Of a stretch of 64,000 nt of DNA, positions 1-36,742 are shown piece after piece. The notes beneath the pieces were generated by a model. That model was given only the letters and a program-made list of their open reading frames with translations, had not been told where the DNA came from and searched no databases. Source of the stretch: Jiangella gansuensis DSM 44835. Lineage in GTDB: Bacteria; Actinomycetota; Actinomycetes; Jiangellales; Jiangellaceae. Both the position numbers and the translations under genes were made by a program. The DNA lies in the NCBI RefSeq assembly GCF_000515395.1, contig NZ_KI911782.1, forward strand, positions 2,912,606 to 2,976,605. Direction: 5' to 3'. How positions within the stretch are numbered: position 1 is the stretch's first letter; each line of letters starts with the position of its first letter.

Positions 1-603
1 GACGACGTCGGTGTCGCCACGGACCGTGGTGAGCCAGTCGCCGAACTCCTCGGCGTTGGAGACGGTGGCGGACAGCGAGATCACACTCACCGACTCAGGC
101 AGGTTGATGATCACTTCTTCCCAGACCGCGCCGCGGAACCGGTCGGCCAGGTAGTGCACCTCGTCCATGACCACATAGCTCAGCCCGGTCAGCGTCGACG
201 AGCCGGCATAGAGCATGTTGCGCAGCACCTCGGTGGTCATGACGACCACCGGAGCCTCGCCGTTGACGGTGTTGTCACCGGTCAGCAGGCCGACCCGGGA
301 TTCGCCGTGGCGGGCGACGAGGTCGTGGTACTTCTGGTTCGACAGCGCCTTGATGGGTGTCGTGTAGAAGCACTTGCGGCCCTGTTCGAGTGCCAGGTGC
401 ACGGCGAACTCGCCGACCAGCGTCTTGCCCGCCCCCGTCGGCGCGGCCACCAGAACACCCCGGCCGGCCTCGACGCTGCGGCAGGCGCGGACCTGGAAGT
501 CGTCGAACTCGAAACCGTAATCACCCTGGAAGTGCCGCAGATGCGGCGACGGGTCGCGCCGCCGGTCGTGTGCTGCCGCGTACCGCTCCGCCGGCGAACT
601 CAT
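1..603 (-). CDS. helY: Ski2-like DEAD/DEAH-box helicase HelY, partial (C-terminus outside window)
   Basis: The reverse strand from 603 encodes the N-terminal 201 residues of a superfamily 2 helicase. Walker A is visible as APTGAGKT, the Walker B/DEVH box as VVMDEVHYLAD, and motif III as SLSAT. The first 30 residues (RYAAAHDRR...LRHFQGDYGFEFDDFQ) match the start of actinobacterial HelY/Ski2-type RNA helicases. The start ATG is preceded by AAGGA at good distance. The gene has no stop in the window, so this is a truncation by the window edge, not a pseudogene. In mycobacteria helY follows tatC; here dagK and a lanthipeptide cluster lie between them. Role in RNA or DNA remodelling is by family only. 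Confidence 0.93.
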   Translation of the reverse strand, partial: MSSPAERYAAAHDRRRDPSPHLRHFQGDYGFEFDDFQVRACRSVEAGRGVLVAAPTGAGKTLVGEFAVHLALEQGRKCFYTTPIKALSNQKYHDLVARHGESRVGLLTGDNTVNGEAPVVVMTTEVLRNMLYAGSSTLTGLSYVVMDEVHYLADRFRGAVWEEVIINLPESVSVISLSATVSNAEEFGDWLTTVRGDTDVV

Positions 604-727
604 GGTCCTTACGCTATCCCGGCCCGCCACCCGGTGCGACAGACCCGCGCGGGCCCGCGGGGCGCACACCGATCCCTGCCCCGCGTAGCGTGCGGCGATC
701 GGCCGCCAAAAGATCCATTGGGAGGTA

Positions 728-756
728 TTGACAACCCCATCACCCGGGAGCACGTT
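728..756 (+). promoter_or_regulatory. Candidate promoter for the lanthipeptide island
   Basis: Position 728-733 reads TTGACA, a perfect -35 hexamer, and 17 bases later lies CACGTT (751-756), a weak -10. A strong Shine-Dalgarno GGAGG follows at about 757-761. The 604-1032 stretch otherwise holds no convincing long gene, so this is the only good promoter-like signal upstream of the plus-strand cluster. It is inferred from sequence alone, and the -10 match is poor. Confidence 0.35.
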
Positions 757-768
757 TGGAGGTGACGC

Positions 769-1025
769 GTGGATCTGCACCGCGTTTGGGGGGTTTCAGA
801 GTTTTCGTGTCCCGCCCGCAGTAGCCGCTGGCGGACACGTCCAGACCGTGCGTCCGCCTCCTCCGCAGGAGCTGTACGACCATGACGCGCAGCCGGGCGG
901 TCGTCGCCGTTCTCGGTCGGCTGTCGGTACTGGCACCGACCATCACTGGCCATGGGGGGCATGGTGCACACCAGGGGCACATCATCGGCCGGCATCGACG
1001 AGCGAGCCGGCTGGACGCACGCTGA
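769..1025 (+). other. Two overlapping tiny ORFs upstream of the lanthipeptide genes (uncertain coding)
   Basis: A GTG ORF (769-885, 38 codons) has GGAGG six bases upstream and overlaps by ATGA a second ORF (882-1025, 47 codons) that has AGGAG ten bases upstream. The second starts MTRSRAVVAVLGRLSVLAP, continues with a Gly/His-rich stretch, and ends five bases before the GTG/ATG pair at 1030/1033. The next gene has no Shine-Dalgarno of its own, so coupled reinitiation from this ORF is possible. Against coding: G/C at third positions is only about 55% and 72% by hand count, below what the neighbouring genes show. No family is recognised. They may be chance ORFs in the leader. Confidence 0.2.
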
Positions 1026-1032
1026 TCACGTG

Positions 1033-1620
1033 ATGGACCAGCTGGAGGAGACGATCCTCCGTGACTACCTCAACGCACAGTGCCGAGTGCTGGCCCGTCG
1101 GCACCCGTACAAGGACTTCCTGCTCGTTCGAACGCTCGCCGACCAACACCAGCACGCCGCCTGGGAGGCGAAGCAAGGGCGGCAGCAGCGCGCCCGGGTC
1201 ATCCTGAGCGCGCTCGAGCGGTTCCATCCGATGTCGACGGAGCTCATCCTGGTCTGCCGCGTCACCTCCGACCCCGCGTGGGCGCTCGCCGACTGGACCG
1301 AGGGCCTGCACCGCCGGGCCATCGAACGGCTGCACTCGGCGCTGGCGGCGTGCGCCGTCCTGGCCGGAGGGTACGACCACGACTACCTGACGCCCCGGCG
1401 CATCTACCTCGCGTCGCACGTCGCGCGGGTCGAACTGTCACGTGGCGCGCCACAGCGGGCGGCCAGCCTGGCCGACGCACTCACCGCGGTGGCGGCTGGT
1501 TCGGCGCGGCGTTGGCCGTTCGAGGACGCCGCGACCCTGCGGGTTCCGCTCCACGGCAACGAGCGGATGATGCTCGACGCCCAACTGGCCAAGCTGCGGT
1601 CGATCGCCGCTTCGCGATGA
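1033..1620 (+). CDS. Unrecognised helical protein encoded just before the lanthipeptide synthetase
   Basis: The ORF encodes 195 residues from ATG 1033; in-frame starts at 1030 (GTG), 961 and 952 (ATG) are also possible, and none has a clear ribosome-binding site. Its stop overlaps the next start as ATGA (1617-1620), so it is almost certainly translated with the synthetase. The protein is rich in Ala, Leu and Arg and predicted by eye to be all-helical (for example RRAIERLHSALAACAVLAG, then VARVELSRGAPQRAASLADA), with a TPR-like feel, but I do not recognise a family. There are no membrane segments or catalytic motifs. Tight coupling suggests an accessory role in lanthipeptide maturation; this is inference. 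Confidence 0.75.
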   Translation: MDQLEETILRDYLNAQCRVLARRHPYKDFLLVRTLADQHQHAAWEAKQGRQQRARVILSALERFHPMSTELILVCRVTSDPAWALADWTEGLHRRAIERLHSALAACAVLAGGYDHDYLTPRRIYLASHVARVELSRGAPQRAASLADALTAVAAGSARRWPFEDAATLRVPLHGNERMMLDAQLAKLRSIAASR

Positions 1621-4286
1621 ACGACCACGACGGCATCCAGGTCGCGGCGGCGCGCGCCGGTGCGACGGGCCTGTTCGCCGGCTGGCAGGTCGGCGGAGGC
1701 GGCGACGGCGGAGCGTGGACGGTGTACCGCCCCTCGGGGCTGTACGACGCCGAGGTCGGCCTCAAGATCCACATCTCGGCTGGCCTCGGGGCGGCGGCCG
1801 ACCTGCTCGACCGAGTGCTCCCGATCCTGGCCCGGGCCCGTTACCCGTTCAAGCACGCTGCCACCATGCAGCACTTGGCCTGGCTTTCCAGCGGACGCGC
1901 AGGGGCCGCTCAGATCGGCAAGTTCCTCACCGTCTATCCACCGAGCTCCCCGGACGCGCGCCGGCTCGCCTGGGCGCTGCACGAAGCCACCACCGGCCTG
2001 GGCGGCCCCCGGATCGCCGGCGACGTCCCCGTGACGGCGGGCAGCCTCGTCCACGTCCGCTACGGCGCGTTCACCGAGCACTGGCTGCAGCTCCCGACCG
2101 GCCGCATCACCACGGCGCGGCGGGCCGGCGACGGCTGGGAGCCCGACGAGCGTGAGGCACCGGCGCCCGGACCTCGGCCGGCGGGTGGCCGGTACATGCT
2201 CGCGCAGCGGCTGCACGCCAGCCCGAAGGGGTCCACCTGGCTGGGATTCCGGATCGACGGCGACGGCGACGATCTGCTGGTGGTGAAACAGGCCCACGCG
2301 TTCGTCATGGAGGCCGCCGACGGCGCCGACGCCCGGTCCCGCCTGCGGCACGAGGCGGAGCTGCTGCGGACCCTGGCCGGCACGGGCGTCACCCCGGCTC
2401 TGGTCGATGCTTGGGACGAGCCCGACCTGTCGTTCCTCGTATACCGGCTGGTCGAAGGGCCGACCTTCGCCTCACTCCTGACCGCGCTGGCCGAACAGCT
2501 GACCCGGCCGCCGATCTCCGTCCTGCGCGGCTGGGCGACTCAACTGTGCGACGCCGTCGGCGCGATCCACGCCGCCGGGATGGTCCTCGGTGACGTCAAG
2601 CCGGCGAACCTCATCGTGACCGACCGGGGGTTCCGGGTCGTGGACGTCGAGCTGACCGGCCCGCCGACCTCCGAGCCGGTCCCCGGCATCGGCACGCCCG
2701 GCTACACGTCTCCGCAGCAGGGCGATCCGGCGCTGGGCCGCGGATTCTCCGACGACGTCTACGCCGTCGGAGCAACCCTGTTGTCCGCAGCGCTGCTGGT
2801 CGACGCGTCGGCGCTACCTGACAGCCGCCGCGCGGCGCTCTACGAGCTCGCGCGCGACCCGGGCAACGCGTACTTCACGACGGTCGCGCGCTGCCTGGAC
2901 CCGGACCCTGCCGGCCGCCCCGGTTCGGTCGAGGAGATCCGCCACGCGGTGCATCGGACTCGTGCCCGCGGCCGGTCGGCCACGCTGCGCCGCCGGCCGT
3001 CGTTGTCGTCGTCCTCGGCACCACGCCGGCTCGAACTCGCCCGCGAAGTCGGCGACATCCTCCTGCGCTCGGCTGTGCGCCGCGGCCGCCATGTCTTCTG
3101 GACGTCCCAGCATCCCATCCAGAGCGGCCAGGCCGGCAGAGACCTCTATGCGGGATCCGCGGGCCCGGCGCTCTTCCTCGCCGCCATGGCAGCGGCCACC
3201 CGCGACGGCGACTACCTGGAGGCCGCGCTCGGCACCGGCCGCTGGCTGTGGGAGGCGCCGCCCGGCTACGCGCGCCAGGTCCCGATGCCGGGTCTGTACT
3301 TCGGTGAGTGCGGGCCGGGTCTGCTCTACCTCGCGCTGGCCGGGCTGACCGGCGACGACGGCTGGGCCCGCCGCGCCCGAGCCGTCGCCGACCGCGTGCA
3401 CGCGATGCCGGCGCATTCCCCCGACCTGATGACCGGCGCGGCCGGCACCGTCCTGTACCTCCTCGCCATGCACCGGGCACTAGGAGACGAGTCCATGCTG
3501 GCGCGGGCGGGCGCGCTCGTCGAGGACCTGGCCCGCACCTGCGACGGTCCCGGCTTCCGCTGGCCGATCCCGCCGGGCCACGACGGGCTCAGCGGCCAGG
3601 CGTACCTGGGCATGTCCCACGGCACCGCCGGCATCGGTTACGCGATTGCCGAGTACGCCGCCGCGGCCGACGACGCCGCCGCCCACCGCCTGTGCGCTGA
3701 CGTCGCGGCCTGGCTCGTCGACCAGGCCGTCCCTTGCCTGCCCGACGGCACCGGCCTGACCTGGTCCGCGTCGGGCGACCCGGGGTCCCCCCGGGCGGTC
3801 TACTGGTGCCATGGCGCCCCCGGCATCCTCCGCTTCCTCGTCCGGGCCTTCGAGGTGACCGGCGAGGCCGCGCTCGTCGACGCAGCCGAGCGTGCCGGGC
3901 GGACCGTCGTCGCCGGCTCCGTCTGGTGCGGCACCTCGCAGTGTCACGGCCTGGCCGGCAACACCGAGGCTCTGGTCGATCTCTGGCAGGGCACCGGCGA
4001 CGACCGCTGGCTTCGGCAGGCCTGGGAACTCGGCGACAACCTCGCCGCTTGCCGCCGCGGTGACGGCGACTGGCCCACGGAGTATCGGGACGTGGTCGCC
4101 CCCGACCTGATGGTCGGGCGGGCCGGCATCGGTGCCGGGTTCCTCCGCCTCGCCATGCCCCACTCGGCGCACCTGCTCTCGCCGGCCGCGTCCCGGCCGG
4201 TGACCGAGCCGTTGGGGATCTCCAACGGCCGCCCACGCGAAGGGAGAACGGACCATGCCCAACATGCGGAAGAGAGGACCGGGTGA
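1617..4286 (+). CDS. lanL: Class IV-type lanthipeptide synthetase (lyase-kinase-cyclase, LanL)
   Basis: The 889-residue protein should phosphorylate Ser/Thr of a precursor, eliminate phosphate to give dehydro residues, and cyclise them with Cys. The lyase domain (about 1-160) has KIH (K50, H52), FKH (K79), GKFLTVYP and VRYGAF. The kinase domain (about 190-450) has VVK (K224), LGDVKPANLIV (D326, N331) and VDVE (D343). The LanC-like cyclase (about 475-850) has SHGTAGIG (H668), YWCHG (C731) and SQCHG (C776, H777). Class III LanKC cyclases usually lack the zinc Cys/Cys/His set; its presence here points to class IV. The start follows from ATGA coupling to the preceding gene. Its 3' end overlaps the precursor gene by 32 bases. 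No transporter or protease gene is adjacent. Confidence 0.88.
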   Translation: MNDHDGIQVAAARAGATGLFAGWQVGGGGDGGAWTVYRPSGLYDAEVGLKIHISAGLGAAADLLDRVLPILARARYPFKHAATMQHLAWLSSGRAGAAQIGKFLTVYPPSSPDARRLAWALHEATTGLGGPRIAGDVPVTAGSLVHVRYGAFTEHWLQLPTGRITTARRAGDGWEPDEREAPAPGPRPAGGRYMLAQRLHASPKGSTWLGFRIDGDGDDLLVVKQAHAFVMEAADGADARSRLRHEAELLRTLAGTGVTPALVDAWDEPDLSFLVYRLVEGPTFASLLTALAEQLTRPPISVLRGWATQLCDAVGAIHAAGMVLGDVKPANLIVTDRGFRVVDVELTGPPTSEPVPGIGTPGYTSPQQGDPALGRGFSDDVYAVGATLLSAALLVDASALPDSRRAALYELARDPGNAYFTTVARCLDPDPAGRPGSVEEIRHAVHRTRARGRSATLRRRPSLSSSSAPRRLELAREVGDILLRSAVRRGRHVFWTSQHPIQSGQAGRDLYAGSAGPALFLAAMAAATRDGDYLEAALGTGRWLWEAPPGYARQVPMPGLYFGECGPGLLYLALAGLTGDDGWARRARAVADRVHAMPAHSPDLMTGAAGTVLYLLAMHRALGDESMLARAGALVEDLARTCDGPGFRWPIPPGHDGLSGQAYLGMSHGTAGIGYAIAEYAAAADDAAAHRLCADVAAWLVDQAVPCLPDGTGLTWSASGDPGSPRAVYWCHGAPGILRFLVRAFEVTGEAALVDAAERAGRTVVAGSVWCGTSQCHGLAGNTEALVDLWQGTGDDRWLRQAWELGDNLAACRRGDGDWPTEYRDVVAPDLMVGRAGIGAGFLRLAMPHSAHLLSPAASRPVTEPLGISNGRPREGRTDHAQHAEERTG

Positions 4287-4641
4287 GGATGATCTCGAGA
4301 TCGCCGCCCGCGTCATGGACACGGTGGAACGGCAGATCGGCGCCTACCGCATCTCGCTGGAGAAGGTCCGGATGTTGCGCAAGGAGTTCGCTCTCGACCC
4401 GGATCTGCAGAAGCGGGCCCTGGCGAACGGCGAGGCCATGTCGCGCCTGCTGATCGAGCGCGGGGTGCCGGAGAACTTCGCCTACGGCATGGCTGCCGAG
4501 GACTTCCAGGACGAGGCCCTTGCCGCCCGCGCCGGCATCTGGACGTGGGACTGTTGCTGCACGTCGTGCTGCCTCACCAGCTGCGAGTGCACGCTCATCA
4601 CGAGCATCGGAGCCTCGCCGGGCCAGGTGAAGCAGGGTTAG
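4255..4641 (+). CDS. lanA: Lanthipeptide precursor with long leader and Cys-rich core (LanA)
   Basis: The 128-residue peptide has an acidic, helical leader (about 1-94) containing EFALDPDLQKRA and AMSRLLIERGVPENF, loosely like Nif11/NHLP-type leaders, ending in ALAARAG. A core from about residue 95 follows: IWTWDCCCTSCC, then LTSCECTLITS, then a Gly/Ser/Pro/Gln tail. The core has 7 Cys (100-102, 105, 106, 110, 112) and 9 Ser/Thr, enough for several lanthionine rings. AAGGGAG lies upstream of ATG 4255 at good spacing; ATG 4264 is an alternative. The gene overlaps the synthetase 3' end, and its TAG stop interlocks with the convergent dagK stop. The cleavage site is inferred; no core of this exact sequence is known to me. 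Confidence 0.82.
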   Translation: MPNMRKRGPGEDDLEIAARVMDTVERQIGAYRISLEKVRMLRKEFALDPDLQKRALANGEAMSRLLIERGVPENFAYGMAAEDFQDEALAARAGIWTWDCCCTSCCLTSCECTLITSIGASPGQVKQG

Positions 4642-5525
4642 CGCGGCCGTAGCGGCGCGAACACGCGCAGGGCGCGCGGGACGAGGTCGAAGGTCCGCGG
4701 CAACGGGCCGAGCCGTTCGCCGTCGACGTAGGCCGTGATGCCGGGCGCGTCGAGCTTGACCCGCCGCGCCCGGCGCACCGACACGAACGGGTAGCCGGTG
4801 TAGGTGCCCCGCCGGACCCGGCGGAACGCTCGTACCAGCGTCAACCTGCTGACCGGCGCGACGATGACCACGTCGAACAGGCCGTTGTCGAGTTCGGCCC
4901 CCGGAGTCATGCGCAGTCCGCCGCCGTAGGACGGCAGGTTCCCGACGGCGACGAGCATCGCCTCGACGTCGGTGACCTCGCCGTCCAGCTCCAGGTGGTA
5001 CGGAATGGGCCGGAACACGCCCAGCTCGGCGAAAGTGGCGATGTCGTAGCGGCGCGGCCCGCGCGGCCAGCGCATCCGGTTCACGCGGTCGTTGACCTTC
5101 GCGTCGAAGCCGGTGGCCACCACGCCGGCGAACCACTGGCCCTCGGAGCGGCCGAGGTCGACGTCGCGGTGCCGACCGCCGGCGACGACGGCCACGGCGG
5201 CCCGCGGGTCGTTCAGCGGTATGCCGAGCCCGCGGGCGAAGTCGTTGCCGGTACCGGCCGGGATGACGCCGAGCGGGGTGGTGGTACCGGCGACCGCCTG
5301 CAGGCCCAGGTGGACCATGCCGTCGCCGCCGACCACCACCAGCGCCCGGACACCGTCCTGAACGCTCTCGCGGGCGAGGTCGGCGGCCTCACGCACGTCG
5401 CGCCCGGCCAGCTCCCGGACCGTCAGCCCGGCATCAGTCAGCCGGCCGGCCGCCCGCCGGCCCGCCCGCGCGCCGCGCCCCCGACCGGCCGCCGGGTTGA
5501 CCAGGAGCGCGATCTCCTCGCCCAT
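4638..5525 (-). CDS. Diacylglycerol/lipid kinase (DagK/YegS-like)
   Basis: This 295-residue enzyme of the diacylglycerol/sphingosine kinase-like family phosphorylates a lipid alcohol with ATP. The catalytic-domain signature appears as VVGGDGMVH (most members have GGDGT) and GVIPAGTGNDFARG. ALLVNPAAGRG near the N-terminus is the conserved first strand and phosphate loop. The C-terminal half has the family's beta-rich lid with GELDNG-like (here AELDNGLFD) and YVDGE motifs. It lies three bases downstream of tatC on the same strand, so they are probably cotranscribed. Its stop overlaps the lanA stop from the other strand. Substrate (diacylglycerol or a related lipid) is inferred. Confidence 0.9.
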   Translation of the reverse strand: MGEEIALLVNPAAGRGRGARAGRRAAGRLTDAGLTVRELAGRDVREAADLARESVQDGVRALVVVGGDGMVHLGLQAVAGTTTPLGVIPAGTGNDFARGLGIPLNDPRAAVAVVAGGRHRDVDLGRSEGQWFAGVVATGFDAKVNDRVNRMRWPRGPRRYDIATFAELGVFRPIPYHLELDGEVTDVEAMLVAVGNLPSYGGGLRMTPGAELDNGLFDVVIVAPVSRLTLVRAFRRVRRGTYTGYPFVSVRRARRVKLDAPGITAYVDGERLGPLPRTFDLVPRALRVFAPLRPR

Positions 5526-10695: not shown

Positions 10696-11804
10696 CAGAA
10701 CGATCCGATGATGTCGATGACCAGCACGAGCGGTGTGCCCTCGCCGCCGTCCGGGCTGGGGTTGTCGGTGGCCGAGATGCGGCTGACGACGCGCGTGCCC
10801 ACGGTCTGCCCGGTCAGCGCCTCGGCGAGACCCGGGATGCCGGCCAGCTGCTCCGGTGCGAGCACGATGGGCGCCTGACCCTCGTCCCAGGTGCTGATGA
10901 CGTCCGCACCGTCCGGGTAGGACGCCTGCACCATGTTGACGACGAGGTTCGCGCCCAGCTCCGGGCCGTCACCGGTGACGACGACGGTGGTGTCGGACGC
11001 CTCGGGCGGCGTGGCTCCCGCGAAGTCGAGGGTGGGCGCGGCGCCCTCTTCGCCGTCCGTGACGGCCGGCATGCCCTCGGGCAGGTCGGCGACAGCCTCA
11101 CCGGACGCGCTGGCCGTCGGGTCGATCGAGTCGATGATGTCGACGACGAAGACGAGCGTGTCGTTCTGGAGGTCGTGACCCTCCTGCGCGCCGTAACCCT
11201 GGTCCGGCGGAATGGACAGCAACACCCGGGAGCCGATGGGCTGGCCGGTCAGGCCGTCCTTCCAACCCGGGATGACCTGGTTGAGCGAGAAGCCCGCGGC
11301 CTGGCCGCGGTCGTAGGAGTTGTCGAACACGTACGGCTCGGCGTCGGCCGGTGCCTCGCTCGGGTCCTCGGTGGCGCTCGGGTCCTCGGTGGCGCTCGGG
11401 TCGGTCGCCCCGCCGGCCGAACCCTCGGTCGCCGCCGGGTCCTCAGCCGGGTCGGTGGCGGCGGGGTCCTCCGGAGCCGGCGCCTCGGCGGCGCGCGGCT
11501 CCCAGGTCTGCCCCAGGTAGTTCGCCACGACGACGTCGTTCTCGCCGACCTCTTCGCCGTCGCCCTCGGAGAGCACCTGAACCTGCAGGTCCGACGGCGG
11601 GTCCTCGTCCGGGATGGTCAGCGTGGGCTTCTCGCCAGCCTCGCCGGCGACCTCGATGCCCAGGTCGGAAGTGGTGACGGGACCGTCGGTGGAGTCGCCA
11701 CCGCCGTCGCCCTCGTCGGAGCCGCAGGCCGTCAGCGCCACGGCGGACGCCACGATCAGCGCGGCCAGTGCCTTTCTAGTGCGCACGGTGAACAAGTCCT
11801 TCAT
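10695..11804 (-). CDS. FKBP-type isomerase lipoprotein with two FKBP-like domains
   Basis: The 369-residue protein has a lipoprotein signal with lipobox LTAC (C27), so it is probably anchored outside the membrane. After an acidic linker, an FKBP domain (about 80-225) carries VANYLGQTW, FSLNQVIPGWKDGLTGQPIG and LLSIPPDQGYG, interrupted at about 105-150 by a Pro/Asp/Glu/Thr-rich insert. That insert includes a tandem 18-bp DNA repeat (about 11350-11400) encoding ATEDPS units. The C-terminal 130 residues look like a second, degenerate FKBP domain that keeps the fold pattern (IPGLAEALTGQTVGTRVVS) but has lost pocket aromatics. It is coupled to the small FKBP gene. Likely a chaperone for exported proteins. 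Confidence 0.9.
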   Translation of the reverse strand: MKDLFTVRTRKALAALIVASAVALTACGSDEGDGGGDSTDGPVTTSDLGIEVAGEAGEKPTLTIPDEDPPSDLQVQVLSEGDGEEVGENDVVVANYLGQTWEPRAAEAPAPEDPAATDPAEDPAATEGSAGGATDPSATEDPSATEDPSEAPADAEPYVFDNSYDRGQAAGFSLNQVIPGWKDGLTGQPIGSRVLLSIPPDQGYGAQEGHDLQNDTLVFVVDIIDSIDPTASASGEAVADLPEGMPAVTDGEEGAAPTLDFAGATPPEASDTTVVVTGDGPELGANLVVNMVQASYPDGADVISTWDEGQAPIVLAPEQLAGIPGLAEALTGQTVGTRVVSRISATDNPSPDGGEGTPLVLVIDIIGSF

Positions 11805-11897
11805 CTCTTCGCGGGCTGGAGGTGTTCGGTTGGAAAGGGCAACCCTAAACGCAGCACCTGAGAACTACCTGAACGGGTCGCGGCACGCAGCTTACGC

Positions 11898-13259
11898 CTA
11901 CATGCCCTCGATCAGCCTGGCCACCCGCTCGTCGACGGAGCGGAACGGGTCCTTGCAGAGGACAGTCCGCTGGGCCTGGTCGTTCAGCTTCAGGTGCACC
12001 CAGTCGACGGTGAAGTCGCGGCGCCGTTCCTGGGCGCGCTTGATGAACTCACCGCGCAGCTTCGCCCGGGTGGTCTGCGGCGGCACCGACTTCGCTTCGA
12101 AGATCTCGACATCGCGGGCGACCCGCTGAACCTGCCCGCGCTTCTCGAGCAGGTAGTAGAGGCCGCGGCCGCGGTGGATGTCGTGGTAGGCGAGGTCGAG
12201 CTGCGCCACCCGGGGGTGCGTCAGGGTCATGTTGTGCTTGGCCCGGTACCGCTCGATCAGCCGGTACTTCGTGACCCAGTCGATCTCGCCTTCGACCAGC
12301 GCGAGGTCGGCGGAGTCGATGGCCTTGATGGTGCGTTCCCACAGCTCCAGGACCCGGCGGATGGCGGGGGTGGCGATCTCGCGCCGTTCGACGAAATCGC
12401 GCGCCTTGGTGAAGTACTCCTCCTGGATCTCCAGCGCGGATGCCTCACGCCCGCCGGCCAGGCGGACCTTGCGCCGGCCGGTGAGGTCGTGGCTGATCTC
12501 GCGGATGGCCCGGATCGGGTTCTCCAGGGTCATGTCGCGCAGCCCGACGCCGGACTCGATCATGCGCAGGACGAGGTCGGTGGCGCCCACCTTGAGCAGC
12601 GTGGTGCACTCGTTCATGTTGGAGTCGCCGACGATGACGTGCAGCCGCCGGTACCGCTCGGCGTCGGCGTGCGGCTCGTCACGGGTGTTGATGATGGGGC
12701 GGCTGCGGGTGGTGGCGCTGGACACGCCCTCCCAGATGTGCTCGGCCCGCTGACTGACGGCGAACACCGCGCCCCGCGGGGTCTGCAGCACCTTGCCGGC
12801 CCCGCAGATGATCTGCCGCGTGACCAGGAAGGGAATGAGCACGTCGGCCAGCCGGGAGAACTCACCGTGCCGGCCGACCAGGTAGTTCTCGTGGCAACCG
12901 TAAGAATTGCCGGCGGAGTCGGTGTTGTTCTTGAACAGGTAGACGTCGCCGGCGATGCCCTCTTCGGCCAGCCGCTTCTCCGCGTCGACGAGCAGGCCCT
13001 CGAGCACCCGCTCACCGGCCTTGTCGTGCGTGACCAGGTCGGTGATGGAGTCGCACTCGGGCGTCGCGTACTCGGGGTGGCTGCCCACGTCGAGGTACAG
13101 CCGGGCGCCGTTGGAGAGGAACACGTTGCTGCTGCGGCCCCAGGTGACCACCCGCCGGAACAGGTAGCGCGCCACCTCGTCCGGCGACAGGCGCCGCTGT
13201 CCGCGGAACGTGCACGTGACGCCGTACTCGTTCTCGAGCCCGAAGATGCGGCGGTCCAT
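11898..13259 (-). CDS. pafA: Pup-protein ligase PafA
   Basis: PafA phosphorylates the C-terminal Glu of Pup with ATP and joins it to substrate lysines. The 453-residue protein belongs to the glutamine-synthetase-like carboxylate-amine ligases. It starts [16 protein letters not shown], carries the catalytic-base region [18 protein letters not shown], the ATP/metal segment [17 protein letters not shown], and [13 protein letters not shown] followed by [11 protein letters not shown]. It lacks the extra Dop loop near residue 40, which separates it from Dop. ATG 13259 is chosen over an in-frame extension to 13319 because the family begins at MDRRI. It lies 10 bases downstream of prcA. Confidence 0.97.
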
Positions 13260-24754: not shown

Positions 24755-24957
24755 CTCGCACCTCCTCGTAAGGGGGTCGTCTATAGCCAGACCCTACAGT
24801 CGCGGCGCCCGAACGCCACGCAGGAGATCAGGTAGTGACCAGATGTTGACGTTCGGTGTCATCCGGCGGTGATTGTCTCTACCCCAACTCGCGACCGGCA
24901 CCACGGGTTCCACCCCCGTCCGACCTGCGCCGAGGCGCCGGCTCACGCTCAGCCGCG

Positions 24958-26022
<1,065 letters not shown>

Positions 26023-27129
26023 TCAGCGGGCGGCCAGCGCCGCGTCGACGTCGGCGGTGGCGAGCACGCCGTACACGCGGCCGTGCTCGTCCACCACCAG
26101 GTACTCCGACGCGGGTGTCTCCCGGATGGCGCGCAACAGCGCGTCGCCTGTGACGTCCAGCGCCAGCACCATGCCCTTCTCCAAGGAGCGCGCCGACTGG
26201 GCGATGGTGACCCACGGCCGGCGCTGCTCCGGGATGGCGGTCACCGCGGCCTCGCTGACCAGGCCGGTGGGACGGCCCGCGCTGTCGACCACCACGAGGG
26301 ACGTGACCCCGGCGAGGTCGGCCTGCTTGAGCGCCTCGGACACGGGGAGGTCCGGGGCGACCGGCGCGGCCCGCCGCGCCAGCGTCCGGGTGTCGAGCCG
26401 GGGCAGCCGGGCGCGCATCCGCCCTACCGCCAGCGCCTGGGTGGCGCCGGTCCACATCAGCGCGGCCACCAGCCCGGCCCACACCATGCCGAACAGGGTC
26501 GGCTGACCGCCGCTGAGCACGAACGGCGTCACCAGCACGAGGGCCGCGAGGACCTGCCCGGCCCGGGCAGCCACGACGGTGCCCCGGTTCTCGTCGCCGC
26601 TCAGCCGCCACACCGTGGCCCGCAGCATGTGCCCGCCGTCCAGCGGCAGCGCCGGGAGGAGGTTGAACACGCCGACGACGAGGTTGGCGAGGGCGAGCTC
26701 CCAGACCAGGAACCGAAGCACGTCGTCGTCGACGACCTGGGTGCCGAGCAGCCCCAGCCCGCCCAGCACCAGCGACAGCGCGGGACCGGCCGCGGACACG
26801 ACGATGTCGCGGCCGGGTGTCGGCGACTCGCGCTCGATCTCGGTGTAGCCGCCGAGGAAGTGCAGCGTGATGCCGCGCACCGGAAGGCCGAACGCGCGCG
26901 CGGTGAGGGCGTGGCCGAACTCGTGCAGCAGCACCGACACGTACAGCAGGACGGCGAACGCCCCGGCCACGACGTAGGCGCCGTTGCCGAGACCGGGCAG
27001 ATAGTCGGTGACCAGCGGCTCGCCCCAGTAGGTGATCACCGCAGCCACGATGAACCACGTCGGGCTGACGTGCACGGGTATGCCCGCCATCCGCCCGAGG
27101 CTCAGCTTCCGCCCGTCACGAGTCGCCAC
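26023..27129 (-). CDS. Site-2-type zinc metalloprotease (M50) with CBS domains
   Basis: This 368-residue membrane protease should cleave a transmembrane substrate. It has the zinc motif HEFGH (69-73) in LLYVSVLLHEFGHALTARAF, a second motif LPLDGGHML supplying the third ligand Asp, several membrane segments, and a C-terminal pair of CBS-like repeats (about 250-365, with SLVVVDSAGRPTGLVSEA and EYLVVDEHGRVYGVLATADV). CBS pairs usually bind adenine nucleotides and may regulate the enzyme. A GTG start at 27129 gives VATRDGRKLSLGRMAG. The physiological substrate is unknown; an anti-sigma factor is possible. It diverges from the RecB-like gene. Confidence 0.93.
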   Translation of the reverse strand: MATRDGRKLSLGRMAGIPVHVSPTWFIVAAVITYWGEPLVTDYLPGLGNGAYVVAGAFAVLLYVSVLLHEFGHALTARAFGLPVRGITLHFLGGYTEIERESPTPGRDIVVSAAGPALSLVLGGLGLLGTQVVDDDVLRFLVWELALANLVVGVFNLLPALPLDGGHMLRATVWRLSGDENRGTVVAARAGQVLAALVLVTPFVLSGGQPTLFGMVWAGLVAALMWTGATQALAVGRMRARLPRLDTRTLARRAAPVAPDLPVSEALKQADLAGVTSLVVVDSAGRPTGLVSEAAVTAIPEQRRPWVTIAQSARSLEKGMVLALDVTGDALLRAIRETPASEYLVVDEHGRVYGVLATADVDAALAAR

Positions 27130-30186: not shown

Positions 30187-30365
30187 CCCGTCCGCCGCCC
30201 GGACGGGCGTGGCGCCGAGTCTCGTCGTACTCCTCGCGGACGACCCCCGCTCCCGGGTCGTCCCCACGACGGAGCGGGCAGACCGTGCCGTTCGCCGATC
30301 ATCTCGCCGGGTCGGAGTCCTAGCGTGGAACACGATAGAACGACCAGCTGACGAGGAGCGCACCG

Positions 30366-33711: not shown

Positions 33712-34817
<1,106 letters not shown>

Positions 34818-34821
<4 letters not shown>

Positions 34822-35831
34822 GCCGGCACCTCCTCGGGCTCGGTCAACGGGTTCAGGCAGCGCAGCGACCGGCCGCCGATCGACTCCAGCGGCGGCGGGC
34901 CGTCCGTGCACGCGTCGATACGGTTCGGGCAGCGCGGCGCGAACGCGCACCCGTCCGGCCAGGCCAGCACGTCCGTCGGCGAGCCGGGGATCGGGTGCAG
35001 CGGCGCGCCGCGGGGCGCGTCCAGCCGCGGCACCGACGCCAGCAGGCCGCCGGTGTACGGGTGCCGGGGCGCGCCGAACAGGTCCCGCCGGCCGGCCGAT
35101 TCCACCACCCGGCCGGAGTACATGACGTGGACGGTGTCGCACAGGCCGGCCACGACGCCGAGGTCGTGCGTGATCATCACCAGCGCCGCACCGGTGTCCT
35201 GCACCAGCTCCTTGAGCAGCTCGATGATCTGCGCCTGGATGGTGACGTCGAGCGCCGTCGTCGGTTCGTCGGCGATGAGCAGCCGCGGCTGGCAGGCCAG
35301 CGCCATCGCGATGAGAGCGCGCTGGCGCATGCCACCGGACAGCTGGTGCGGGTACTCCTTGAGCCGGCGGTTCGGGTCCGGGATGCCGACGCGTTCCAGC
35401 AGCCCTTCGGCGGCCTTCCGGGCCGCGTCACCCTTGAGGTCCTGATGCCGTTCCAGCACCTCGGTGACCTGGATCCCGATCGGCACCACCGGGTTGAGCG
35501 ACGACATCGGGTCCTGGAACACCATCGCGATGTCGCGGCCCCGGATGTCGCGCATCCGGTCACGCGGCAGGGTCAGCAGGTCCTCGGTGTCGAACAGCAC
35601 CTGCCCGCCGACCCGGACACTGCGGCGCGGCAGCAGGCCCATGACCGCAAGCGAGGTGACGCTCTTGCCGCTGCCGGACTCCCCCACCAGGCCGACGGTC
35701 TCGCCGGGGCTGACGGTGAACGTGACACCGTCGACGGCGCGCACGTCCGGGCTGCCCTTGCGGGTGAACGCGACGGACAGGTCACGGACGTCCAGGAGCG
35801 GGCCGCGGGCTTCGGAGATGATCACGCTCAC
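34818..35831 (-). CDS. Oligo/dipeptide ABC importer ATPase (OppD/DppD type)
   Basis: This 337-residue ATPase pairs with the OppF-type protein. It has Walker [11 protein letters not shown]-loop [13 protein letters not shown], signature [14 protein letters not shown], Walker [14 protein letters not shown]-loop MITHDLG, and the C-terminal [14 protein letters not shown] Cys motif that in relatives can hold an Fe-S cluster. The GTG at 35831 overlaps the permease stop as GTGA; a second GTG lies two codons later. Coupled translation with both neighbours is clear. Confidence 0.94.
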
Positions 35832-36742
35832 CGCCGGTACTTGGGGTCGATGGCCTCGCGCAGCCGCTCGCCGAGCATGGTGAACCCGAGCGCGGCGATG
35901 ACGATGGCGATGCCGGGGAACAGAGCCAGGTGCGGCGCGGAGGCCAGGTACCGCTGGGTGTCGGCGAGCATCCGGCCCCACTCCGGGACCCGCGGATCGG
36001 CGCTGCCCAGGCCCAGGAACGACAGCGCGGCCGCCTCGATGATGGCCGTCGCCAGTGTCAGCGTCGCCTGGACGATCACCGGCGAGATCGAGTTCGGCAG
36101 GATGTGCCCGAACACGATGGACCGCCGCCGCACCCCGAGCGACTCCGCGGCCAGCACGTAGTCGCTCTGGCGCTGGGACAACATCTGCCCGCGCAACAGC
36201 CGGGCGAACACCGGCACGTTCACGATCGCGATGGCGATCATGACCGAGGTGAGGCTGGCACCCAGCAGCGCGGCGATGGCGATCGCCATCAGCAGCCCCG
36301 GGATGGACAGCATGACGTCGACGATCCGCATGACCAGGGAGTCGACCCACCGGCCGAACGCCCCGGCCAGCACGCCCAGGCTCAACCCGCCGATCATGCC
36401 CAGCAGCATCGCGACCACGCCCACCAGCAGCGATTGCCGGGCACCGTAGATGACCCGGCTCAGCTCGTCGCGACCGGACGCGTCCAGCCCGAACCAGTGC
36501 TCCGCGGACGGGCCCGGGATGTTGGTCGGGGTGATCTGCCCGGAGCCGGGCCGGGCGTCCGGCGCGTAGGGCGCCAACAACGGCGCCAGGATCGCCACCA
36601 GCACGAAGAAGGCGATCAGGCAGAACCCGACGATGGCCACCGGGTCACGCCGCAGCCGCCGCCACGCCTCGCGCCGCAGGTTGCCGGCGCTCTGCTCGAC
36701 CTGTTCGGACTCGGTCGCCGACTCGATCTCGGACAAGCTCAT
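35828..36742 (-). CDS. Peptide ABC importer permease (DppC type)
   Basis: The 304-residue permease has the N-terminal cytoplasmic segment and first helix (IVGFCLIAFFVLVAILAPLL), a large extracellular loop with the family HWFGLDASGRDELSRVIYGA, five further helices, and the EAA loop (AAESLGVRRRSIVFGHILPN). It should form a heterodimer with the DppB-type permease. A 99-base gap, low in recognisable signals, separates it from that gene; no terminator is evident there. Confidence 0.94.
   Translation of the reverse strand: MSLSEIESATESEQVEQSAGNLRREAWRRLRRDPVAIVGFCLIAFFVLVAILAPLLAPYAPDARPGSGQITPTNIPGPSAEHWFGLDASGRDELSRVIYGARQSLLVGVVAMLLGMIGGLSLGVLAGAFGRWVDSLVMRIVDVMLSIPGLLMAIAIAALLGASLTSVMIAIAIVNVPVFARLLRGQMLSQRQSDYVLAAESLGVRRRSIVFGHILPNSISPVIVQATLTLATAIIEAAALSFLGLGSADPRVPEWGRMLADTQRYLASAPHLALFPGIAIVIAALGFTMLGERLREAIDPKYRR

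Follow-up and report, generated by a model that had tools for sequence, protein, structure and literature searches.

A rare three-gene lanthipeptide cassette with a conserved partner protein in Jiangella gansuensis

Class IV lanthipeptide synthetases (LanL) combine a lyase, a kinase and a zinc-binding LanC cyclase in one polypeptide, and the precursor gene adjoins that of the enzyme. The class III enzymes (LanKC) have the same three-domain order; according to a large survey they lack the cyclase zinc ligands, unlike class IV (PMC7268733). Few class IV lanthipeptides have been characterized: PMC9576775 gives the number as two, to which it adds another two. A related locus lies in Jiangella gansuensis DSM 44835, in a stretch of 64,000 nucleotides (contig NZ_KI911782.1, positions 2,912,606 to 2,976,605 of the forward strand) referred to here as the window. 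Three plus-strand genes encode a small protein termed the partner, a LanL-like synthetase and a precursor peptide. This cassette is real, rare and conserved, and is a variant of lanthipeptide biosynthesis with an extra component. The reading preferred here, with a probability of about 0.47, is that of an acquired lanthipeptide cassette whose partner is a tetratricopeptide repeat (TPR)-like adaptor binding the leader, the synthetase or both. All three frames are intact and lie where a first-pass annotation, made from the letters of the window, had placed them:

1033–1620, plus strand: partner gene as first called, 195 residues; relatives in J. asiatica and on plasmid pRB98 of Rhodococcus oxybenzonivorans.
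964–1620, plus strand: partner gene from an alternative GTG start, 218 residues; GGGGGG upstream; frame kept in J. asiatica.
1617–1620, plus strand: ATGA shared by the partner stop and the synthetase start; ATGA also in J. asiatica (at a lanL stub), TTGA in Rhodococcus.
1617–4286, plus strand: LanL-like lanthionine synthetase (lyase, kinase, zinc LanC cyclase), 889 residues, assigned from Pfam, NCBIfam and a tree.
4255–4641, plus strand: precursor peptide gene, 128 residues; overlaps the 3' end of lanL by 32 nucleotides; AGGGAG before the ATG.
4288–4350, plus strand: leader segment DDLEIAARVMDTVERQIGAYR, the longest conserved leader stretch; 18 of its 21 residues are the same in Rhodococcus.
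4540–4638, plus strand: core counted from W96, with a provisional leader–core border, WTWDCCCTSCCLTSCECTLITSIGASPGQVKQG; seven Cys and nine Ser/Thr.

The full trio recurs on the R. oxybenzonivorans megaplasmid pRB98. Relative to the window, the partner is 39% identical, the synthetase 43% and the precursor 45%. Because the whole trio recurs in Rhodococcus, the three open reading frames (ORFs) are not products of chance. The Rhodococcus precursor is an ORF of 135 residues upstream of the partner gene and ends WTWDCCCSSCCFTCSMATQVTGCTSTFVQ. The synthetase frame there has 869 residues and overlaps the partner stop by TTGA (the record annotates a later start). The precursor gene comes first in Rhodococcus and last in the window, and the partner–synthetase overlap is kept in both. 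The same overlap is found in a third species, J. asiatica, whose partner is 76% identical to that of the window. Standing beside the same kind of precursor and enzyme on the Rhodococcus plasmid, the partner probably contributes to the lanthipeptide machinery and is not a stray neighbour. The opposite possibility, that the partner is a passenger of the island without a role in the peptide pathway, draws on 18 related synthetase loci, at none of which the partner profile found a match (L042 offers merely 733 bases before its synthetase). These loci came from 50 genomes with synthetase matches and are the highest ranked beside J. gansuensis itself, with G162 passed over. A passenger is nevertheless very improbable, as in two distant genera the partner gene directly adjoins the synthetase gene and shares bases with it, though the precursor gene has moved. 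Beside lanL genes other than that of the window, the partner thus stands next to one intact gene (Rhodococcus) and one stub (J. asiatica), and was found at none of the 18 others, a mixed outcome for the refuting condition set at first pass. Two further genes were observed around the Rhodococcus cassette (L005). A subtilase (S8) gene at 10821–12599 lies some 1.9 kb upstream of the precursor gene, separated from it by a single gene; its product may be a leader protease or be unrelated. A serine/threonine kinase gene at 24793–26103, which follows the cassette at a distance of about 6.6 kb, gives a weak match to the synthetase profile.

The ORF on which the first-pass length of 195 residues was based is present, but the frame is conserved further upstream. 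Between ATG 1033 and GTG 964 it is kept in J. asiatica over 23 aligned codons, with one 9-nucleotide indel and changes distributed 4/4/9 over the codon positions. GGGGGG stands before GTG 964 in both Jiangella species, a run that is lacking before ATG 1033. On this modest evidence the partner may have 218 residues rather than 195. Nonsynonymous and synonymous divergence between the two Jiangella partners is 0.159 and 0.633 (dN and dS, NG86), over a span that includes time before the lanL deletion in J. asiatica. A charge-based pairing of a basic partner with an acidic leader was considered and rejected: the isoelectric points of the three partners are 9.65, 6.66 and 5.74.

The partner is rare. 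Among 72,556 plasmid records the single relative is that of pRB98 (37.7% identity, E 4e-17, tblastn), and J. asiatica is the sole match among 84,980 species genomes in a scan that reaches close relatives only. In genome samples that overlap one another, convincing matches number 2 in 22 genomes of the order, 2 in 393 genomes of the class (with one further match judged to be chance), 1 in the 401 genomes of the family reached via G051 (G603, taken as R. oxybenzonivorans) and 1 in the 28 genomes of the genus of G603. No match was found in 35 genomes of the family of G145. The 317 genomes of a family taken as Streptomycetaceae gave only six weak matches, judged to be chance. In the scans of the class, the 401-genome family and this last family, 8–10 first-look candidates were scored per genome, and diverged relatives were possibly missed. 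Five weak Streptomycetaceae matches (G146, G945, G950, G993 and G1000) all align to positions 70–163 of the query. That of G146 was rejected on reading the frame by eye as a subunit of NADH-quinone oxidoreductase, the other four on the shared query range and a similar open frame. A match in G874 (E 3.7e-4, query 92–185) was also rejected; by eye its frame reads as a TetR regulator. On viral contigs, a relative was confirmed for neither partner nor precursor.

The synthetase carries the domains and residues attributed to it at first pass. RamC_N (1.1e-35), LANC_like (3.3e-34) and Pkinase (5.1e-8) all score above their Pfam cut-offs. C731, C776 and H777, the zinc ligands, lie within WCHG and SQCHG motifs and are kept in the Rhodococcus relative (P0006), which also keeps the kinase-part residues K224, D326, N331 and D343. 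The class IV label holds in part. Architecture, zinc ligands and the best NCBIfam match (class IV LanL, NF038150) speak for it, but the scores of 508.9 bits for the window and 489.9 bits for Rhodococcus do not reach the 650-bit cut-off. On the class III model NF038151 the window enzyme scores 272.8 bits; the genome's own class III LanKC scores 1092.9 bits there and 400.8 on the class IV model. A tree was built from 25 synthetases: the 18 fetched loci, that class III enzyme (L063), four annotated plasmid loci, and the window and Rhodococcus enzymes. It is unrooted, and four rows, including P0006 and L066, deviate in composition. The window and Rhodococcus enzymes form a pair (100/100) within a six-row set (99/97) and fall outside a 13-row group (98/99) to which the two annotated LanL enzymes L065 and L066 belong. 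Since NF038150 is the best NCBIfam match of the enzyme although the score remains under 650, it is assigned here to a sister lineage that is LanL-like and is not regarded as a typical LanL. The cassette differs from class IV LanL systems with ALQxL precursors in its score below cut-off, its place outside the 13-row group, its long leader and its conserved partner gene. Extra ORFs were noticed near LanL-type synthetases at L041 (10884–12098), L043 (11104–12189) and L066 (15040–16335). Two of them weakly match the synthetase profile and one is annotated as lanthionine synthetase C family; a second cyclase next to a complete synthetase would be odd.

The two precursors are unusual in their long leaders, of 95–106 residues, compared with a total length of 39 residues for the annotated pair of ALQxL precursors at L065. 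Leader residues 12–32 follow the consensus DDLxIAARVMDTVxRQIGxYR and lie within a predicted helix (residues 11–47; a weak single-sequence model with a mean predicted local distance difference test (pLDDT) of 68). An amphipathic character of this segment was not clearly supported, its moment being reached by 1182 and 199 of 5000 shuffles for the two sequences. The window core starts WTWDCCCTSCC, and the shared stretch is WTWDCCC[TS]SCC. The first 11 core residues are identical at 10 positions in Rhodococcus, and either core has seven Cys. Precursors of the NHLP/Nif11 type, from the ribosomally synthesized and post-translationally modified peptides (RiPPs), likewise have a long, probably helical leader. 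The WTWDCCC precursors differ from them in finding no family match in Pfam or NCBIfam, NHLP and Nif11 leader models included. Among the four other members of the six-row set, three (L039, L049 and L054) adjoin ORFs of 99–120 residues in which NHLP-like stretches were seen by eye; at L048 no such ORF was seen by eye beside the synthetase. Weak NHLP-type matches were obtained only for the L039 ORF, at E 0.013 and above; the ORF at L054, whose core is poor, may be a misread. The score of a hidden Markov model of these three ORFs against the window and Rhodococcus precursors was reached by 1 and 10 of 2000 shuffles, and direct comparison of both precursors with that of L039 was not significant. 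A kinship of the WTWDCCC precursors to these ORFs is borderline, and the sequence comparisons are suggestive only. The candidates at L049 (7045–7347) and L039 (11244–11543), of 99–100 residues, were observed in place of the short class IV type.

What the partner is was approached through its sequence and predicted structure. The first-pass description of a protein of no recognized family, here found to recur beside a lanL-like gene, stands: the 195-residue protein is below every Pfam and NCBIfam cut-off, and remote-homology and structure searches likewise place it, at the level of sequence, in no common family. An AlphaFold2 model from a two-sequence alignment has eight helices (pLDDT 77.6, predicted template-modelling score 0.73), and the fold may be guessed to be all-helical and TPR-like. 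Foldseek returned nothing for this model at E ≤ 0.001; the best value was E 0.019, in a weak list of mainly TPR and 14-3-3 proteins. VIA-align placed PlcR, LGN, NprR and others at Z 11–12, with the peptide-binding complexes PlcR–PapR (Z 11.9) and NprR–NprX (Z 11.5) among the highest rows. The partner thus resembles TPR peptide-binding proteins (PlcR, NprR and the PcrH/IpgC chaperones) in its predicted helical-repeat fold and differs from them in lacking a sequence match above any cut-off. One weak NCBIfam match is to the type III secretion chaperone SctY (E 0.0028, 18.1 bits against a cut-off of 70, over 24 residues). The RiPP recognition element is a winged helix with beta strands; the partner model (mean pLDDT 77.6) has no strands, and its sequence has no Pfam match to that element. 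The presence of PlcR and NprR raises the alternative of a regulator, either a peptide-sensing TPR protein of RRNPP type or a remote TetR-like protein, acting on the operon or responding to the peptide. The TetR form of this alternative would build on a PDB TetR-family match (E 0.052) and the G874 frame (E 3.7e-4), which fall on the same part of the query (92–185). A regulator is unlikely all the same, as the VIA-align rows stand within 1–2 Z of many unrelated helical repeats and Pfam finds no TetR or other DNA-binding domain in the three partners. With the single partner sequence, the PDB sequence search gave one match, at E 0.66. Residues 92–135 thus resemble TetR-type regulators weakly in each of two independent searches, which may be chance or a remote relationship.

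Within the preferred reading of a TPR-like adaptor, the following steps are proposed. (i) A precursor with an unusually long, largely helical leader would be made. (ii) The partner, a putative helical-repeat protein, would be translated in step with the synthetase. (iii) It would bind the leader, perhaps at the DDLxIAARVMDTVxRQIGxYR segment, and/or the synthetase, and so (iv) present or hold the core during modification. (v) The synthetase would phosphorylate core Ser/Thr residues, eliminate the phosphate and close (methyl)lanthionine rings with Cys. (vi) Leader removal and export would depend on functions encoded elsewhere in the genome, which also carries a class III LanKC gene followed by prolyl oligopeptidase and ABC exporter-type genes (see below). 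An adaptor is favoured because the overlap with the synthetase start is found in three species, the trio is linked in two genera, and the partner is absent from a lineage without the leader segment: the nearest synthetase outside the pair (L039) lacks that segment, and no partner was detected beside it. Conservation of the partner between the two Jiangella species, the pairing of the two synthetases in the tree and the predicted TPR-like fold also speak for it. The maturation factor suggested at first pass is plausible in this light, with partner and the same kind of precursor beside the Rhodococcus lanL-like gene.

Several observations weigh against this proposal. Two intact trios came to light in these searches, so that the link between partner and leader rests on n=2. 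The TPR label comes from a model built on a two-sequence alignment, without a Foldseek match at E ≤ 0.001; Z values up to about 13 may reflect merely a common arrangement of helical repeats, and Pfam TPR_14 reaches 11.6 bits on the partner against a cut-off of 23.5 (11.2 bits on P0007, no match on P0005). Searched against PDB sequences, the partner profile matched a single entry, a putative TetR-type regulator (E 0.052, residues 93–135), as a regulatory role would lead one to expect. That the class III genes of the same genome act in trans on the island is speculation. The partner has also been kept in J. asiatica after loss of most of lanL and of the precursor, which could reflect either an independent role or only a recent deletion. 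This last observation is what an immunity or product-binding protein, protecting the producer in a cluster without an exporter, would lead one to expect, and helical-repeat proteins often bind peptides. Such a role is still fairly unlikely, since the stop–start overlap kept in two genera is with the synthetase, not the precursor, and favours a link to the enzyme.

The adaptor proposal is embedded in a history of acquisition. The island lies in a single-contig genome of 5.59 Mb, and its borders follow from comparison with congeners:

604–4637, about 4 kb, no strand: acquired island, delimited against congeners without it.
Left flank, start codon at 601–603, minus strand: helicase-like gene (named by eye).
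Right flank, stop at 4638, minus strand: diacylglycerol-kinase-like gene (named by eye).

The full island occurs only in J. gansuensis among 12 Jiangella genomes compared, with a remnant in J. asiatica. In the other 10 loci, where it is absent, 19–23 nucleotides separate the flanking genes at their aligned ends. Because the flanks, both core genes, adjoin in these 10 of 12 genomes, the island is taken to be acquired. J. asiatica DNA aligns to the window up to position 1838 and again from 4653: all of lanL except about 72 codons, and the entire precursor, have been deleted, and the partner ORF is intact. The stub (L001 8585–8800) is fused directly to the region 3' of the precursor. The congener's deletion makes it conceivable that the window island is itself silent or decaying and yields no peptide, a reading under which the partner could have any of the roles considered. 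A scan of 560–4720 found no consensus promoter or terminator, its promoter part covering sigma-70 consensus sites only. Given this restricted scan, three intact frames and the motifs shared with Rhodococcus, a silent island is quite unlikely. Long antisense ORFs in the region were not accepted as genes; the DNA is GC-rich.

The first-pass annotation had regarded the missing transporter and protease as unusual, a view that comparison did not support. Queried with the ATP-binding cassette (ABC) ORFs of these loci and of the window, an ABC ATPase was found at 10 of the 18 related loci (stretches of 10.9–19.9 kb), or at 11 with a fragment at one end of the L048 stretch included. None was detected at the remaining eight, where ABC ATPases were the one transporter type searched for, nor in 30.5 kb of Rhodococcus L005. 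As eight of 18 related loci also lack a detected ABC ATPase, the lack of a transporter at the island is ordinary. Proteases are absent from most reported class III and IV clusters, according to PMC8960859. The nearest ABC ATPase gene in the window begins at 30339, and an ABC pair at 33715–36644 carries an oligopeptide-transporter C-terminal domain. An annotated Streptomyces LanL locus has an ABC gene; an annotated Kitasatospora LanL locus with ALQxL precursors (L065) has none among 15 features of 17 kb, in an incomplete table, and a major facilitator superfamily gene upstream. Elsewhere in the J. gansuensis genome (L063 8709–17127; ~1.21 Mb), a class III LanKC gene is followed by genes for a prolyl oligopeptidase and ABC exporter-type proteins. 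FlaA-like precursors and FlaP-like proteases are reported in Jiangella (PMC8960859). The earlier stress on a missing exporter was misplaced; that on the partner was justified.

Searches of the open-access literature, which did not cover the core motif itself, brought up no title or abstract that describes this cassette. The large survey took candidate precursors of 30–120 residues (PMC7268733). Precursors of 128 and 135 residues exceed this limit; they would have escaped it, or entered it in truncated form from an internal start codon, which marks a blind spot of such surveys for long lanthipeptide precursors. To our knowledge, lanthipeptide synthetases are thought to recognize their precursors alone. 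The cassette may represent, tentatively and with some doubt, a synthetase lineage in which a separate helical-repeat subunit recognizes a long leader, that is, two-component substrate recognition for peptides with a CCCxSCC core. Recognition of long structured leaders by protein–protein contacts, described for another enzyme class in PMC12455567, fits this general idea. These three genes make it testable whether a lanthipeptide synthetase ever needs a separate leader-binding subunit.

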